Shown here: in pieces, positions 8,317 through 43,726 of the stretch | Position numbering within the stretch: position 1 is the first letter of the stretch | Layout: each line of letters starts with the position of its first letter | Assembly: GCF_006152115.1 (NCBI RefSeq) | Contig: NZ_VDFU01000002.1 | Location: 62,001-126,000 of the forward strand | DNA length: 64,000 nucleotides | Direction: 5' to 3' | Source: Rubellimicrobium rubrum | GTDB lineage: Bacteria > Pseudomonadota > Alphaproteobacteria > Rhodobacterales > Rhodobacteraceae | The notes under the pieces: generated by a model | What the model was told of the DNA's origin: nothing | Databases searched by the model: none | What the model saw: only the letters and a program-made list of their open reading frames with translations | Position numbers and translations under genes: made by a program

Positions 8317-9327
8317 TTAGTTCGAAGCGCCGGCGATCACCGCCTGCGCATCCTCCAGCGAGTACTCCACATTCGCCACGCCACCTTCGGGCGTCGCCTC
8401 GAGCGCGGCATCAAGCCCGTCCTGCTGGATCTCCAGGAATGGAACGATCAGGTCCTGCGGGACGGTCTGCCCGTCCAGCACCTGCTGCGCCACCCAGAAG
8501 GCCAGGGTGGACACACCCGGTGCAATGGACACGGACATCGTCTCGTAGCCGCTCGCGTCCCGCTGCTCCTTCCACCAAAGAAGCTCGTCCTGCCGGTTGC
8601 CCATGACGATGATCGGCATCTCGCGGCCTGCGGCGGCAAAGGCCTGCGCCGCACCGTAGCCGTCGCCGCCCTGGGTCACGACGCCGACGATGTCGTCCGG
8701 CAGGCTGGGCAGGATCCCCGCAACCGCCCGCTGCGCCACGTCCTGCGCCCAGTCACCATGGACCGAGCCCGCGATCGAGAACTGAGGGAACTGCTCCACG
8801 CCCGCATGGATGCCCGCGCTGATCTCGTCGTCCACGAACACGCCGGCGAGGCCACGGATTTCGAGGAGGTTGCCGCCCTCCGGCAGCCGCCCGGAGAGAT
8901 ACTCGACCTGCTTGCGGCCCATCTCCTGAAAGTCCACGGCGATGCGGTAGGCGCAGGGTTCGGTCACGATGCCGTCGAAGGACACGACCACGATGCCCGC
9001 GTCGCAGGCCTCCTTGACGGCGCCGTTCAACGCCGTGGGCGAGGCCGCGTTGACCACGATGGCGTCATAGCCTTCGAGGATCATGTTCTGGATCTGCGCG
9101 GCCTGCTCGGTCGCCTGGTTCTCGGCGGTCGTGAAGGCGGGCGCCTCGGCCACGACCCCGTCCGCGACGGCTTGGCCCGTCACCTTTTCCCAGCTTTCCA
9201 GCATCGCCTGGCGCCAGGAATTACCGGCATAGTTGTTGGACAGGGCGATCCGCCGCTCGGCGGTGTCCGCCAAGGCCGGAGTCGCGAGCGCCAGCACGGC
9301 GGTCGCCGTCATCAGTCTGGTCATCAT
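8317..9327 (-). CDS. Ribose-type sugar ABC transporter solute-binding protein
   Basis: A 336-residue periplasmic binding protein of the RbsB-like (Peripla_BP_4) family. The signal peptide is MMTRLMTATAVLALATPALA. The mature N-terminus (IALSNNYAGNSWRQ), the ALNGAVKEACDAGIVVVSFD region and the VVTQGGDGYG loop are typical. The ATG at 9327 is chosen because GGGGAGG lies about 10 bases upstream; a longer frame to 9429 runs through the untranslated leader. It is the first gene of the operon (binding protein, ATPase, permease, permease). No dedicated regulator is adjacent; inverted repeats upstream may supply control. Confidence 0.93.
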   Translation of the reverse strand: MMTRLMTATAVLALATPALADTAERRIALSNNYAGNSWRQAMLESWEKVTGQAVADGVVAEAPAFTTAENQATEQAAQIQNMILEGYDAIVVNAASPTALNGAVKEACDAGIVVVSFDGIVTEPCAYRIAVDFQEMGRKQVEYLSGRLPEGGNLLEIRGLAGVFVDDEISAGIHAGVEQFPQFSIAGSVHGDWAQDVAQRAVAGILPSLPDDIVGVVTQGGDGYGAAQAFAAAGREMPIIVMGNRQDELLWWKEQRDASGYETMSVSIAPGVSTLAFWVAQQVLDGQTVPQDLIVPFLEIQQDGLDAALEATPEGGVANVEYSLEDAQAVIAGASN

Positions 9328-9386
9328 GGTCTTAAGTCCTCCCCACCATTTCACGGGAGATGTCTTTGCACCCCTCGGCCCTGACC

Positions 9387-9431
9387 ATGTGCCTGGATCC
9401 CGTTCGGGATGCACATGAGTCGGCTGCATCC
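9387..9431 (-). promoter_or_regulatory. Nested inverted repeats upstream of the binding-protein gene
   Basis: Two overlapping inverted repeats lie 60-105 bases before the start codon. In the first, ATGTGC (9387-9392) pairs with GCACAT (9411-9416) and ATCCCG (9397-9402) with CGGGAT (9405-9410), giving a hairpin with a 4-base bulge. In the second, GGATGCA (9407-9413) pairs with TGCATCC (9425-9431) across 11 bases. The two cannot form at once as RNA, so they may be competing structures, or one may be a dimeric regulator site. Confidence 0.45.
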
Positions 9432-9965
9432 TGACATGGCCGTGACGGGGCGAAAAGACATCTCATCACGAACCCGCGCTCGTCGACCTTTCTCTTGCCG
9501 GAAGGCGGAGAGGTCCGGCGTGCCGATCTCTCCAGCAACAATCCCACCGACAGCAAAACGCCTGACCTTCAGCGGGTTTGTAGGCCGGCTTGACGTCATC
9601 CATCGAACAAGACCACCCTCCGACACGGGAGCCCGAGAACCGGGAAGGCCCCTGAACGGCCCCCCGGCAGCCAACTCGATCTGGCCGATGATTTAAGCGT
9701 TCAGTCTGACTGCGCTGCTGACCGGTGCCGTCGGAGCGGAGCCTGTGGCCATGGCTGTTGGGAAGTCATGAGAGCTAGGGTATGGAAGAGCGGAGACGGC
9801 GGGTCTGGCCCGACGCGAAGAGGCAGGCCAATCGGCAACCAGGCGCGGGGGCCGGGGCTCTGGTCAAGTTATCCAATGGAAATCCGTCATGCTCATCGTA
9901 GATCTTGAGAGCCAGCAGGCCGAGAGGCTCTTGGTTAAACAGGCGAGCAATTGAAGGAGAACGCT
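9432..9965. other. Intergenic region, no gene seen
   Basis: About 530 bases lie between the divergent transporter operon and the PP-loop gene. Base composition becomes noticeably more AT-rich over the last ~100 bases, marking entry into the foreign-looking gene. I see no tRNA, integrase or repeat that would define an insertion boundary. Confidence 0.5.
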
Positions 9966-11054
9966 GTGAGGGCCAAGATCACCAGGGCAGACAGCAGCAG
10001 AATTACAGTGCAGATCAGTGGAAAGGAGAAGATCTTCTTTGACTTTGGCGATGCATTCTCGCCAGCTCTGGACGATCATTCTATGTCAAACTTCCTGGTC
10101 AGGACGGCTTTCGGAGCGGCCATGAATGACGGAGCCGACCTTGAAGTAGACGTTCCAGTCGATGCACGTTTGGCGCGAAACCTAGAGAAGTTTTCGACCG
10201 CTTGGTGCCAGTACCGGCCGTGGCGCTTCAAAAAGGCATCGCGAATTGCCGCCCCTTCCTACCTCCACGGCGAAGGAAACCACGAACAAAGCTTTGTTGC
10301 GGCATTCAGCGGTGGATACGATTCTTCGTATATGATAGAGAAGTATGGGCGAAAAAACGACCTTTCGCCGTTTCCTAGGATAGATTCAGCCGTAATGATA
10401 GATGGATTCGGCTATAACTTGGAAAATAAATCGCCATATCAGAGGGCATTTGGTACGGGAAGTGCGTTTTGCTCGGCTGTGGGGGATATAAAGCTCCACT
10501 CAGTAGAGAGCAATTGGTCTAAGATCGTCGGTCAGTATGCAATACTGCATGTCATGGGCATCTCGGCGGTCTTGGGCTTGAAGTCGAATGTTGCCGGAGG
10601 AGGATACGTAGGTCTAGACTTTACGGCAGCCGAAGAGTTCGCCCTCGGCTCTTGGGGAAATCTAGATGGCAATGATCGCCTTTTCTCTTCCTACGACTTC
10701 GAGATACTCCCCGTTGGGAACGATGTTCCGAGAATCTCCAAGATCCGCCACCTGAGGAACATTGGGCTCGATGGGCACATCGTTGTTTGTAATGCCGAAA
10801 ACAGGGTGGGCTCGAACTGCGGCGCGTGCGAGAAGTGCCTGAGAACACAGCTTTCATATCGTGCGCTCGGAATGCAACCACTTGACGGTCAGTTTGAGGA
10901 ACCCCTTACCGAGGAAGCGGCGTCCAAGCTTATTATCGAGAAAAAGACCCAGCTGATATTCTATAAGGCAATTCGACGTGCTTGGCTGGACCGGTCGGAT
11001 GTGTATTTTGCCATTGTTAAACGTCTGATAAAGAATGCAGGTCCGCTTCACTAG
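9966..11054 (+). CDS. PP-loop (ExsB/QueC-like) ATPase, function unknown
   Basis: A 362-residue protein with the adenylating PP-loop SGGYDSS at residues 115-121 and a Cys cluster CGACEKC (about 285-291) like the zinc site of QueC/ExsB-type enzymes. Known relatives adenylate a substrate carboxyl or carbonyl before amide or thiol transfer. This protein is longer than QueC (~220-230 residues), with an extra N-terminal domain of about 105 residues, and no queuosine or deazapurine genes are nearby, so the product is unknown. The GTG at 9966 is preferred because GAAGGAGA lies 5 bases upstream; TTG 9951 overlaps that site. Codon use is far more AT-rich than neighbouring genes, suggesting transfer. 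It stands alone. Confidence 0.8.
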   Translation: MRAKITRADSSRITVQISGKEKIFFDFGDAFSPALDDHSMSNFLVRTAFGAAMNDGADLEVDVPVDARLARNLEKFSTAWCQYRPWRFKKASRIAAPSYLHGEGNHEQSFVAAFSGGYDSSYMIEKYGRKNDLSPFPRIDSAVMIDGFGYNLENKSPYQRAFGTGSAFCSAVGDIKLHSVESNWSKIVGQYAILHVMGISAVLGLKSNVAGGGYVGLDFTAAEEFALGSWGNLDGNDRLFSSYDFEILPVGNDVPRISKIRHLRNIGLDGHIVVCNAENRVGSNCGACEKCLRTQLSYRALGMQPLDGQFEEPLTEEAASKLIIEKKTQLIFYKAIRRAWLDRSDVYFAIVKRLIKNAGPLH

Positions 11055-11482: not shown

Positions 11483-12985
11483 TCAGAGTGCAAAGTCCGC
11501 AGCCGAAAGGCGGCTTGTCAGGCCCAGAAGCAAGATCGACATCTCGGCCTGCCCGTCGCCGTCGAGGTTCATCTCGACCAGGAGATCGCCGTCTCTCGTG
11601 ACGCTCTGTCGTATCTCGCCCCGGCTGAACGCACCGCCGGCATCGAGGCGGAAGACCCCGTTCCCCGCGCCGCTGCCGTTTGCATCGATGGCGGTCAGGA
11701 CGATGTCGTCCAGCCCCTTGGCAAAACCCGCGATCCGGTCGCGCCCCTCGCCTGCGACGCTGTCGCGCACGGAGGTGAAAACGAAATCGTCCGCTCCGTC
11801 GTCGCCACGTAAGTGGTCGGCTCCGGCGCCGCCCCGCATCATGTCGTCGCCCGTGCCCCCCGACAGCGTGTCGTTCCCTGACCCGCCCCGCAGGTCATCG
11901 GCCCCCGAGCCACCCAAGAGCGTGTCCATGCCCCCCAGCCCGTCCAGCCGGTTTGCCGCCCCGTTGCCGCGGATCAGGTCGGCCCTGCTCCCGCCGGTGG
12001 CGTTCTCGATCACCACGCCGTTGGCGATCGTGAAGCCGCCATGAATGCCCTTGGCATGGGACACCCACCCTCCGCCGCCTTCCTCGAACCCCAGCGTAGC
12101 GGCGCGCAGGTCGATGGTGTTGGCGCGGGCCTCCGCCCCCAGAATGCGATCCGTCCCGCCAGCATCCCAAAGGCACAGGTAGTAGGTCCCGCCCCGGTTG
12201 GCCTCAGGCAACTCATAGGTGTCCGCCCCGGCGTGGTAAGACATGTTCCTGCCGTACATTCTTTGGAGCGCGGCGATGTCGAGCGCCATGGGCCCGGCTT
12301 GGTAGCCCCAGGCCCAATCGGGGCTCGGCCCTGAGGGGCCAGTGTGCCACCCATCGTTATAGGACATCATCGTGTAGATGCCCTGGTTCATGGCAAAGGC
12401 GCCCGGAGTTTCGGACACCTCGGGGATCACACCGGGAAAGACAGTGGTGCCGTCGCCGCCATCATGCGGGTGAACGAGGCCTACCACATGGCCCAACTCG
12501 TGAATGAAGACTAACCACTCGGCGCCGCCCCGAGCCAGATATGCGGGATCGTCACTCGGTGACTGGGCCTCTCCGTTCATGAGGATTAGGCTCTGCTCGT
12601 CGCCAACAGCTCGGTTGTAGTAATCACCTGGGAAGTAGCCAATCCCGCCGGCTCCATCTGCATCCAAGTTGCTGACCGTCGCCCAGATTATGTCAGCATC
12701 GGCCTGCGACGAGACAGCCCGAAAGTCGATGTTGCAGACGGCCTCGAAGGACGCCATCGCCGCTCTCATGGCGGCGACCTCTCGGGGATAGGGCTCCAGC
12801 GCGGTGACAGCGGTCAAAGGCTCGAATGGAGGCAGCGCGACCTGCTCCTGGCCATCCGTCCCAGCGATATAGACCGATATGACCGTTCCATCGCCGGGTG
12901 AGGACCATCGGGTGTCCCACATCAAGGTCCTCAGCCAGACGTTGTTGGAGTCGGGTGCGTCCGTGACGTCCGCGGTTCCGGCCAT
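11483..12985 (-). CDS. RTX metalloprotease of the serralysin (M10B) type
   Basis: A 500-residue secreted zinc endopeptidase. The metzincin motif HELGHVVGLVHP is at residues 162-173 and the Met-turn TMMSYN at about 205-210. Glycine-rich calcium-binding nonapeptide repeats (GGSGADDLRGGSGNDTL and similar) run from about 325 to 400. The C-terminus ends SAADFAL, resembling the acidic/hydrophobic tail used for type I secretion. There is no Sec signal, as expected. GAAGGAGG lies upstream of the ATG. Serralysins normally leave through a T1SS (ABC exporter, membrane fusion protein, TolC), but none is encoded here. A second, divergent member lies at 41080-42753. Confidence 0.92.
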   Translation of the reverse strand: MAGTADVTDAPDSNNVWLRTLMWDTRWSSPGDGTVISVYIAGTDGQEQVALPPFEPLTAVTALEPYPREVAAMRAAMASFEAVCNIDFRAVSSQADADIIWATVSNLDADGAGGIGYFPGDYYNRAVGDEQSLILMNGEAQSPSDDPAYLARGGAEWLVFIHELGHVVGLVHPHDGGDGTTVFPGVIPEVSETPGAFAMNQGIYTMMSYNDGWHTGPSGPSPDWAWGYQAGPMALDIAALQRMYGRNMSYHAGADTYELPEANRGGTYYLCLWDAGGTDRILGAEARANTIDLRAATLGFEEGGGGWVSHAKGIHGGFTIANGVVIENATGGSRADLIRGNGAANRLDGLGGMDTLLGGSGADDLRGGSGNDTLSGGTGDDMMRGGAGADHLRGDDGADDFVFTSVRDSVAGEGRDRIAGFAKGLDDIVLTAIDANGSGAGNGVFRLDAGGAFSRGEIRQSVTRDGDLLVEMNLDGDGQAEMSILLLGLTSRLSAADFAL

Positions 12986-13291: not shown

Positions 13292-13900
13292 GCCTAGAAA
13301 ATCCAGGGGATGCACGTCTGGAACGAGGTGACCCCTGCCGACAAAATCCTGCAAACGCTGGGCGATTTCGTTCGGGCCGGCAAGATCCGATACTTCGGGT
13401 TCTCGGACATGCCCGCCGAGTTGGTCATGAACGCGGTCGCGATCGCAGCAGAGCGCCGCGTAACCCAGTCCCATCACCATGCAAGTGGAGTACTCTCTGG
13501 TCGCGCGATGTGGAGCGGGAGCACGTGCGGATCGCATGCGAAGCGGGGATGCCTGTGGGGCCCTGGAGCCCGGTCCCAGCGGCTTCTTCACGGGCAAGTA
13601 CCGGCAGCCGGCTCAGCGGCGTCAACCCGTTCGGCGACAGGGAGCTCACCGACCGCAACTGGGCCCTTCCCGACGCGCTGCGCCAAGTGGCCGACGGGGG
13701 CGGCCGCCCGCCCGCGCAGATAGCCATGGCCCGGCGTGACCTCCACCTTGGTGGGCGCGCCAAGTCGAGCAGCTCCACGAGGCCGTCGCTGCCTCCGACC
13801 TGACGCTCACGGCGGATCAGCTTGGCCGACCGACCGAGGCAAGCGCGCCCGCGCCCGGCTTCAGCGACAGCCCGACCTCTGCCCCAATCCGGTATGGTGT
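13292..13900 (+). pseudogene. Decayed aldo/keto reductase (C-terminal half, several frameshifts)
   Basis: Pieces of one aldo/keto reductase appear in order but in different frames. MHVWNEVTPADKILQTLGDF then VRAGKIRYFGFSDMPAELVM start at 13310. QVEYSLVAR follows from about 13482, EREHVRIACEAGMPVGPWSP from about 13513, FFTGKYR near 13583, DALRQVADGGG near 13674 and RQVEQLHEAVAASDLTLTAD near 13760. This order matches the family's strand 4 to C-terminus (VRAGKIRY.GFSN, QVEYSL.AR, WSPL, GKYR, ARRVEQL). A stop codon precedes the first piece and the N-terminal half, including the catalytic Tyr region, is not found. At least four frame changes make it a non-functional remnant. Confidence 0.82.
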
Positions 13901-41079: not shown

Positions 41080-42753
41080 TCAGAGCAGTATGTCTCCGGC
41101 CCCCAGGGCCTCGATACCCAGAATGCGGATCTCGAAGTCGGCCCGGCCATCGCCAGAGACGTCGCCCCGCAGGGTCACCCCGTCCGATCCGGCTGCCCAC
41201 CAGACCGAGTAGGCGGCGGGCCCATCGTCCGCGAATGCGAGGTTTCCATTCCAGTGGGCTGCCGATCCACCAGCACCGATCCTTTGCAGATCCAGATCGT
41301 CCACGCCGGGAACGAAGCCCCGGATCACGTCCGCTTCTCGTCCGGCCAGAGTTTCGGCCGCGCTGGTAAAGATGAACACGTCCCTGTCCCGATCGTTGCC
41401 GCCGTCGAGAATGTCGCGCCCCAGACCGCCACTGAGCCGATCCTGCCCCGACCCGCCCAGGAGCCGGTCCCGGCCCGGTCCCCCGATCAGGTCATCGTCG
41501 CCGGCGAGACCAGCCAGGACGTTAGAGCCCTTGTTCCCGACGATGCGATTGGCAGCGTCGTTGCCCGTACCCCACGCAGCCGAGGCTCCGATGAGCCGCA
41601 ACGCCTCGAACTCGGGCGGGAGACGGGCCGAACCGCGGGATACGATCGTGTCGAACCCTTGGCCGGCTCGTTCGACCAACCGATCCGAGGAGTCCTGGAC
41701 ATAGGTGTCGTCGCCGGCTCCGCCCATGAGGAGGTCGCGCCCCCGACCCCCGCAGAGAGAGTCGTCGCCCGAGCCCCCATCGATCGTGTCGGCCCCATCG
41801 CGGCCGCGGATCACGTCGGCTCCGCCTCCACCCCGAAGCCTGTTCGCCGCGGCGTTTCCCCCGATCCAGTCGGCTCCGCTGCCGGCGCTGTAATCCTCGA
41901 TCACGGTGCCCTGCGCGATGCCCAAGCAGTCCTTGTGGCCATAAACGGTCGAGAACATGCCTTTCCGCAGGTCCACGCGCTGAGAGGCCGGGTCATCGCT
42001 GAAGTCGAGGCGGTCGTGGCCGCCCTCGTCATAGACGGTCATGACATTCCGAGCCAGCTTTGCCGGGGAACTGCTTCCAGCTTGGAACATATCGCCCAGA
42101 TAACCGACCAGATTGGTCCCGACGCCGTAAACCGTGTCTCCTGCAGTCGCACCTCCTTTCGGCGCGCCGTAAATCCGCTGAATGGCCGCGATATCCGCCA
42201 TCATGGGCGTGATGACGAAGGAGGGAAATGCTGCTGACGAAACATTCGGATTTTCGTCCTGATCGAAATAGGACATGACGCTTTGCTGCCAGGAATCATT
42301 ACGGAACAGCGCTTCCTTGAAATTGTCGCTGCCCCGGTATTGAGCCGGATGCCCCAATCCAAGGGCATGGCCGATTTCGTGAAGGTAAACCTGGAACGCA
42401 TAGGTTCCCACCTTCGTGCCCGAGAAATCCAGCCATGAACGACCGATCGCCACGGTGGCCCAGTTCATGTGCCCATTGGCATCATGGTCGCCGGACGTCG
42501 TCGCCGAAAGGCCGCTGTCCGTGAATCGGATATGCCCACCGTCGTCGACCTCCTCGAACTCAAGGTCGGCAACACTTTCCCAGGCCGAAAGAGCGGCCCG
42601 CGCCAGAGCCGCCCCTTCGCGATCCAGCCCTGTCAGGTCGACTTCGATGATGTCAGTCGTAGTCCAGTCACGCGCGATCTGCCCTCGATCCTGCCAGAAA
42701 CCTTCGACGAGATATTTAATCAGTTCGGAATTGGATCCGTTTTGCGCCGACAT
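41080..42753 (-). CDS. RTX metalloprotease of the serralysin (M10B) type, second copy
   Basis: A 557-residue secreted zinc protease with HEIGHALGLGHP at residues 125-136 and Met-turn SVMSYF at 158-163. Two blocks of glycine-rich calcium-binding repeats (about 295-345 and 435-465: GGRGRDLLMGGAGDDTY and similar) follow, with a tail GAGDILL suited to type I secretion. It differs strongly from the copy at 11483-12985 in sequence and repeat spacing, so it is not a recent duplicate. ATG 42753 has AAGGA 9 bases upstream; ATG 42840 would add 29 residues without support. It converges on the surface operon. No T1SS genes are in the window. The protease-coding half is more AT-rich than the repeat half. 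Confidence 0.92.
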   Translation of the reverse strand: MSAQNGSNSELIKYLVEGFWQDRGQIARDWTTTDIIEVDLTGLDREGAALARAALSAWESVADLEFEEVDDGGHIRFTDSGLSATTSGDHDANGHMNWATVAIGRSWLDFSGTKVGTYAFQVYLHEIGHALGLGHPAQYRGSDNFKEALFRNDSWQQSVMSYFDQDENPNVSSAAFPSFVITPMMADIAAIQRIYGAPKGGATAGDTVYGVGTNLVGYLGDMFQAGSSSPAKLARNVMTVYDEGGHDRLDFSDDPASQRVDLRKGMFSTVYGHKDCLGIAQGTVIEDYSAGSGADWIGGNAAANRLRGGGGADVIRGRDGADTIDGGSGDDSLCGGRGRDLLMGGAGDDTYVQDSSDRLVERAGQGFDTIVSRGSARLPPEFEALRLIGASAAWGTGNDAANRIVGNKGSNVLAGLAGDDDLIGGPGRDRLLGGSGQDRLSGGLGRDILDGGNDRDRDVFIFTSAAETLAGREADVIRGFVPGVDDLDLQRIGAGGSAAHWNGNLAFADDGPAAYSVWWAAGSDGVTLRGDVSGDGRADFEIRILGIEALGAGDILL

Positions 42754-43726
42754 GATCGGACATCCTTGCACATCGATTACCCCGATGTTTCGTTGACCGA
42801 TTAAGCGCGCCATTCTGACGTCGGAAGCCGACGAACTCACCCCATGGAAACCCTAAGGAGAGGTGTGTTAATGCGTCCTTGCTTTTTCCAAGCCGCATGA
42901 AGCGATAGTTAACGTTGCAAAATGGATTAAATGAAGCTTCGAGATTGAGGCGCGGACGCCCCAGGGCAACCTGCACTGCGGCGCTCCGTTTCGCCGGATG
43001 CCGAAGGCCTTCCGTCATTGATCGGCGCTGTCGCAGCACGAAGGGGAGTCGCCAGTGTGACAGCTCCGATGTCCGCGATCGCGCTGACATGGCTCCGCGC
43101 TGGAAGAAGTCCCAGCCTGTGCCGTCCCAAGCACGGCGCTGAAGAGGGCCCGTGGCGAAGTGTTCCATGGGGGATCGCTGTTGTCCGTGGTCTTGGACGT
43201 CTTGCATCCCACGCCCATGCCTGCCCCGTGGTCCTCGCGAAGTTGCGGACTGACGGGACCGGGTCGGGCCCCTGTCATCAGCCGGTCACGCGATCAGATG
43301 ATCCGATCCAGCCCTCGGCAGGGCGACCAGCTGGGATGCTCCCTTGAGCTCAGCAGCGTGCACTGACCCGCTTGGGTCGTCAGGGCGCGCCCTTGCCGCG
43401 TTCGGCCGCTGTCCAAGGGGAGCCAGTCGCCAACAGGGTCGCACAGCGCGAGGCCGCTCGTTAGCTGAACAGGAGTTCGCGCACAGTGCCGGGTCCGAGT
43501 TGGGCTGAGCTTGGGACAGCTTCGATGCCAGACCCGCCGATGACAGGGCGGTCAGTGGGCTGGGGGCAAGGCCAGAGATCTGTTTCCAGGCCTGGGGTTT
43601 GGTCCTGCCGTCAGGGTACGGATGTCGGCGCAAACCGCGATGGAAAGCGCCGAACCCTGCCGTGGAAGCCCCCAGTCCACCGTACCCGCCCGCGCATGAC
43701 GGCTTTTGAACAAAGGAAATAGGTAA
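42754..43726. other. Long gene-free region upstream of the second RTX protease
   Basis: Nearly 1 kb without a supportable gene. Bases 42835-42950 are AT-rich (TTAACG and GGATTAAATG patches) and probably hold the protease promoter. The remainder is GC-rich with only short random-looking frames. No transposase remnant, tRNA or repeat array could be recognised. Confidence 0.5.

Follow-up and report, generated by a model that had tools for sequence, protein, structure and literature searches.

A solitary, likely transferred PP-loop ATPase of Rubellimicrobium rubrum from an undescribed family with many relatives beside polysaccharide pyruvyl transferase genes

The gene at positions 9966-11054 of the window (the whole stretch of 64,000 nucleotides of R. 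rubrum DNA that was analysed) encodes a PP-loop ATPase, which we tentatively read, with a probability of roughly 45%, as an ATP-dependent adenylating ligase tailoring a surface glycan that is pyruvylated or acidic in some other way, the window copy being transferred and solitary. Established directly here are the gene, its family, a core of the QueC/QatC type, the conservation of ATP and zinc motifs and the neighborhood link of the relatives. Because many of these relatives lie beside pyruvyl transferase genes, the role is probably the tailoring of a cell-surface sugar and not the synthesis of a tRNA base, nor one in phage defence. Motif and predicted fold suggest that the window protein is catalytic; a glycan substrate, as well as a glycan link for the window copy itself, is put forward by analogy, from the neighborhoods of the relatives only.

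The open reading frame (plus strand) is intact, begins with GTG and has a product of 362 residues. The features are as follows (window positions, strand):

9345..9965, no strand: stretch without conservation that separates the PP-loop gene from the conserved sugar ABC operon (blastn against four congeners)
9954..9959, +: ribosome-binding site AAGGAG, 6 nt upstream of the GTG start (sequence)
9966..11054, +: PP-loop ATPase gene, 362 aa, QatC-like overall predicted fold (translation, homologue alignment, AlphaFold model, fold comparison)
9966..10283, +: N-terminal domain, residues 1-106, three strands, helix, strand, helix (family conservation; pLDDT 86 for a model of the domain alone)
10308..10325, +: PP-loop SGGYDS, residues 115-120 (G117 and D119 invariant across 17 homologues)
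10656..10688, +: loop GNLDGNDRLFS, residues 231-241, probable substrate-selecting loop (GSHPxxDPLxS in the family)
10731..10742, +: R256 and K259, both invariant, probable counterparts of the TK motif in QueC and QatC (homologue and profile alignments)
10788..10838, +: cysteine cluster C275-x9-C285-x2-C288-x2-C291, probable zinc site

At the gene's own composition, a frame as long as this would arise by chance with a probability of about 2e-8, and homologues align across nearly the full length; we therefore take the gene to be real. The approximately 106 residues ahead of the PP-loop align family-wide and so represent a conserved domain, not a mis-called start. Scans for promoters and terminators around the gene gave scores near chance level. 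The composition was said in the initial annotation to differ from that of the neighbors, and it does: the gene has 51.1% G+C and a GC3 of 57%, versus 65-69% and 79-85%, respectively, in three neighboring genes and 67.6% G+C in the window as a whole. Since a second AT-rich stretch is found in the window at 42.0-43.0 kb (57% G+C), the low G+C of the gene is marked, yet not unique there.

The invariant positions of the family alignment are G117, D119, G231, R256, K259 and NCGxCEKC together with the preceding C275. The cysteine cluster reads C275-x9-C285-G-A-C288-E-K-C291, with all four cysteines invariant among the 17 aligned homologues; profile alignments match them to the cysteines of the zinc sites in QueC and QatC, and the cluster probably binds zinc. 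Within the loop at residues 231-241, which the profile alignment places where QatC carries its TRTxHP loop, G231 is invariant and D237 and S241 are nearly so. The family version of the loop is WGSHPxxDPLxS and that of the window protein is WGNLDGNDRLFS, the HP present in most relatives being lost. Confidence of the AlphaFold model is low at residues 218-234.

The SGGYDS motif at residues 115-120 and a core that aligns with QueC, Cap9, TilS and LarE place the protein in the PP-loop superfamily, and the QueC-type core proposed earlier is borne out by profile comparison as well as by fold. In profile-profile comparisons over the core region, the family matched QatC with a probability of 94% and QueC with 86%, versus 98.5% between QatC and QueC, which places the family further out in the superfamily that it shares with them. 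In fold comparisons using the AlphaFold model of the window protein (pLDDT 78, pTM 0.79), the match to QatC extended over residues 1-352 (293 residues aligned at an rmsd of 4.2, Z 17.6), and those to Cap9 (Z 12.5) and to QueC (Z 12.3) were confined to the core; further core matches were TilS, LarE, MnmA and the nitrile synthetase ArtA, the natural-product PP-loop enzymes ArtA and YcfA both being among the fold matches. The extra N-terminal region was correctly singled out in the initial annotation as separating the protein from QueC, and the overall arrangement resembles that of QatC. Folded alone, the N-terminal domain had only generic RNase H-like matches (Z ~5), QatC was absent among the matches listed, and the profile of the domain against that of QatC was not significant; homology of the two N-terminal domains is suggested by the full-length model.

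Sequence searches turned up no characterised protein that matches over the full length. With a threshold of E up to 0.001, the window protein matched no model of Pfam, NCBIfam or PADLOC, nor any of NCBIfam and PADLOC when this was relaxed to E up to 10; a PDB sequence search returned a chance-level match only, and a PDB search by the family profile returned none. Single family members match QueC (PF06508) and DUF6395 weakly. The match to DUF6395 (PF19932), itself a family of unknown function, lies over the cysteine cluster at E 0.003 (17.9 bits versus a gathering cut-off of 25), with 9 of the 17 members matching at E up to 1; a literature search found no paper mentioning DUF6395. MurL, a peptide epimerase, was described as having no known conserved domains (PMC8788868).

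About 40 homologues were found in many phyla, the nearest being 27% identical to the window protein, and judged by their sequences they define an undescribed and unnamed family. A scan of 84,980 genomes recovered 16 relatives from Actinomycetota, Spirochaetota, Planctomycetota, Gemmatimonadota, Myxococcota, Omnitrophota, Armatimonadota and Pseudomonadota, as well as one haloarchaeon; since the scan relied on short exact patterns, the family was sampled, not counted. Further members, annotated only as hypothetical proteins, are present on plasmids of Gloeothece and Azospirillum. The family profile matched the window protein at E 2.9e-104 (profile positions 11-366 of 400), a value for one of the profile's own 17 rows; independent members reach E 3.8e-103. 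The PP-loop gene has no second copy in the host genome and was not found in phage records or IMG/VR, and viral predicted structures gave matches only to phage QueC and other PP-loop cores. Some genomes carry several copies: an alphaproteobacterial genome of 1.9 Mb has four, two of them in tandem (contig C5, loci L076-L078), and Williamsia has a tandem pair (L014). At L001:8960-12736 an open frame of 1259 residues contains, mid-frame, a very divergent second family domain and adjoins a stand-alone copy.

The window gene is solitary and lies between a sugar ABC operon and a serralysin-like RTX gene; no same-strand gene of notable size, and neither PS_pyruv_trans nor any other glycan gene, lies beside it. 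By blastn, the ABC operon is shared with four congeners, at nucleotide identities of 68-81%, as far as window position 9253-9344; beyond it no match was found in the congener sequence fetched, and synteny breaks about 600 bp upstream of the gene. None of seven congeners matched the PP-loop gene, whose placement is not conserved among them, and the family profile is present in only 16 of 394 genomes of the host's bacterial family and 4 of 337 of its class. Composition, absence from the congeners, patchy presence and the synteny break together indicate that the gene was likely acquired by transfer, in agreement with the initial annotation. The flanks of the gene had no match in plasmids and, except for the serralysin gene, no copy elsewhere in the host genome; repeats around the gene were not convincing, and there are no tRNA genes within the 64-kb window. 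In the phylogenetic tree the window protein falls into a well-supported group of eight with long branches, the other seven members of which belong to the host's own bacterial family.

Serralysin-like RTX metalloprotease genes are found at 11483-12985 (-) and 41080-42840 (-). The former has further genomic copies (the best with 67% DNA identity, contig C47); at the start of the latter there is a dip to 57% G+C (42001-43000). A gene-poor stretch contains a degenerate, apparently frame-shifted aldo-keto reductase fragment at 13310-13800 (+).

The glycan assignment comes from the neighborhoods of the relatives. Of the 34 family-carrying genomes searched for PF04230 (PS_pyruv_trans), 13 have it no more than 6 kb away from the family gene (the remaining 21 had no such neighbor within this distance), versus 0.15 expected under random placement; 200,000 simulations never gave more than 4. 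In Gloeothece the family gene belongs to a glycosyltransferase cluster, where it comes after a polysaccharide pyruvyl transferase gene, and on Azospirillum plasmids the family gene and PS_pyruv_trans form a two-gene unit amid unrelated genes. Near-contiguous pairs on the same strand occur at Gloeothece, Azospirillum, Omnitrophota, Streptomyces and Sedimentisphaerales loci, and in a Planctomycetia bacterium (L013) the two are fused in a single open reading frame. PS_pyruv_trans and polysaccharide flippases top the Pfam tally of 95 immediate neighbors at other loci. Part of the association could be explained by common polysaccharide islands whose genes do not act together; a direct link is favored by the L013 fusion and by the Azospirillum pair, which stands isolated. 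Among the contexts offered in the initial annotation, surface polysaccharide thus gains support, by way of the relatives only, and defence and nucleotide modification are not the supported ones. Our literature search found no paper linking a PP-loop protein with polysaccharide pyruvyl transferase, and a recent survey of the QueC superfamily (PMC13329287), as we read it, describes no group like this pyruvyl-transferase-linked family.

How do other known activities of PP-loop proteins fare? A core fold common to QueC, TilS and MnmA would suit a tRNA- or nucleotide-modifying enzyme, and QueC shares with the window protein the SGGxDS loop, a C(x)8-9CxxCxxC pattern and the core fold. The window protein, however, has the extra N-terminal domain, and the family zinc motif, C(x)9CxxCxxC, is one residue longer than that of QueC, C(x)8CxxCxxC. 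The QueC motifs YPDC, VPxRN and YxQxHxxE, as given in the survey (PMC13329287), are absent from the family alignment. Neither the window protein nor any site in the host genome matched QueC PF06508 above the Pfam gathering cut-off, and this 99.98%-complete genome also has no QueD (PF01242), consistent with the pathway partners having been noted as missing. De novo 7-deazaguanine synthesis is therefore unlikely in the host, likewise queuosine-type or Cap9-type chemistry, and the host probably makes no queuosine precursor de novo. With a very patchy presence in the class besides, we regard a role in tRNA or nucleotide modification as barely credible. A QatC/Cap9-like protein-modifying enzyme, which would place a small acid onto a partner protein at its N-terminus and might act in phage defence, we consider rather doubtful. 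QatC (PDB 9y01, 9y02; NF041925) is the closest overall predicted fold among solved structures, N-terminal part included; it shares the PP-loop core and four-cysteine zinc site with the family, and the window protein is predicted to have the same overall arrangement of N-terminal extension, QueC core and C-terminal helices. The Tyr/Asp pair that binds CDG is lost in both QatC and the family, and the mobile, patchy distribution would also fit. Sequence identity of the window protein to QatC is 10%, however, and where QatC has a TRTxHP loop the family has GSHPxxDPLxS, the invariant QatC threonines T278 and T280 being missing from the aligned window loop, SWGNLDGND. The cysteines follow C(x)19CGxCxxRR in QatC and C(x)9CGxCEKC in the window protein. 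The curated QatC model NF041925 had no match to the window protein or anywhere in the host genome, PADLOC gave none for the protein, and no qatA, qatB or qatD was seen adjoining the window gene; those PS_pyruv_trans neighbors that were checked do not begin Met-Gly. Cap9 of type IV CBASS (PDB 9nto) has the core fold in common with the window protein; according to two papers (PMC13279940, PMC13329287) it has about 185 residues, no N-terminal domain and a retained CDG-binding motif. No CD-NTase gene adjoins the window gene, the host lacks the CDG pathway, and the relatives are placed with glycan genes.

That setting is shared by the sugar N-acetyl amidotransferases of the WbpG/WbuX/NASAT type (TIGR03573), which belong to the same superfamily and would transfer ammonia onto an N-acetyl group of a surface sugar. 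They too have zinc, and about 120 residues precede their PP-loop (PMC10607449), but their tetracysteine pattern CXXC-Xn-[GN]XCXXC, from the same paper, is absent from the family, which has C-x9-CGxCxxC. The WbuX model matched 1 of the 17 members weakly (E 0.13) and did not match the window protein, and no HisH/HisF-like ammonia supplier was noticed, so we judge this activity unlikely. The NASAT structure 8WEX does not figure among the fold matches listed. Tailoring of a secondary metabolite, with a peptide or glycosylated small molecule as the substrate, is suggested by the fold matches to ArtA and YcfA and by the non-ribosomal peptide synthetase genes that adjoin the family gene cluster on two Gloeothece plasmids and recur at a few other loci; such genes are missing at Azospirillum, at most other loci and at the window copy, and we find it quite unlikely. 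The window gene might also be a decaying, non-functional relic at a transfer-prone spot, being an orphan at a synteny break, with a degenerate aldo-keto reductase nearby and the HP of its loop lost; but the full-length frame, a good ribosome-binding site and retention of the PP-loop, R256, K259 and the cysteines make this very unlikely. Our preferred reading, the tailoring of a surface glycan, has its own difficulty: the window copy and six of the seven nearest relatives in its clade have no PS_pyruv_trans neighbor.

PP-loop enzymes cleave ATP into AMP and PPi, thereby adenylating a carboxyl or carbonyl oxygen that is then displaced by a nucleophile. In surface-glycan tailoring, the zinc-containing enzyme would split ATP to AMP and PPi and adenylate a carboxyl (or an amide carbonyl) of a sugar-linked substrate, and ammonia or an amine would attack the adenylated group to give an amide-type bond. 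In many relatives the neighboring pyruvyl-transferase-family protein may handle the same substrate, a surface polysaccharide or a glycosylated product. Choice of the acceptor might fall to the N-terminal domain together with the loop around residues 231-241, in the way that QatC holds its partner by means of extensions and an inserted loop. The window copy could work with glycan genes elsewhere, for example the sole PS_pyruv_trans gene of the host, which is on contig C54 beside a putative glycosyltransferase. A more specific proposal, itself unlikely, is that the partner installs a pyruvate ketal on the sugar, and that the PP-loop enzyme adenylates the free carboxylate and amidates or ligates it.

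If true, pyruvate-ketal ligation would be the sugar-side counterpart of QatC/Cap9 ligation on the same two-domain scaffold, and a glycan modification so far undescribed; to our knowledge, the reaction of QatC itself is unsolved. With a family of QatC-like predicted architecture tied to pyruvyl transferases by adjacency and fusion, this scaffold would also serve surface-glycan chemistry, and the two-gene unit on the Azospirillum plasmids provides a concrete gene pair.
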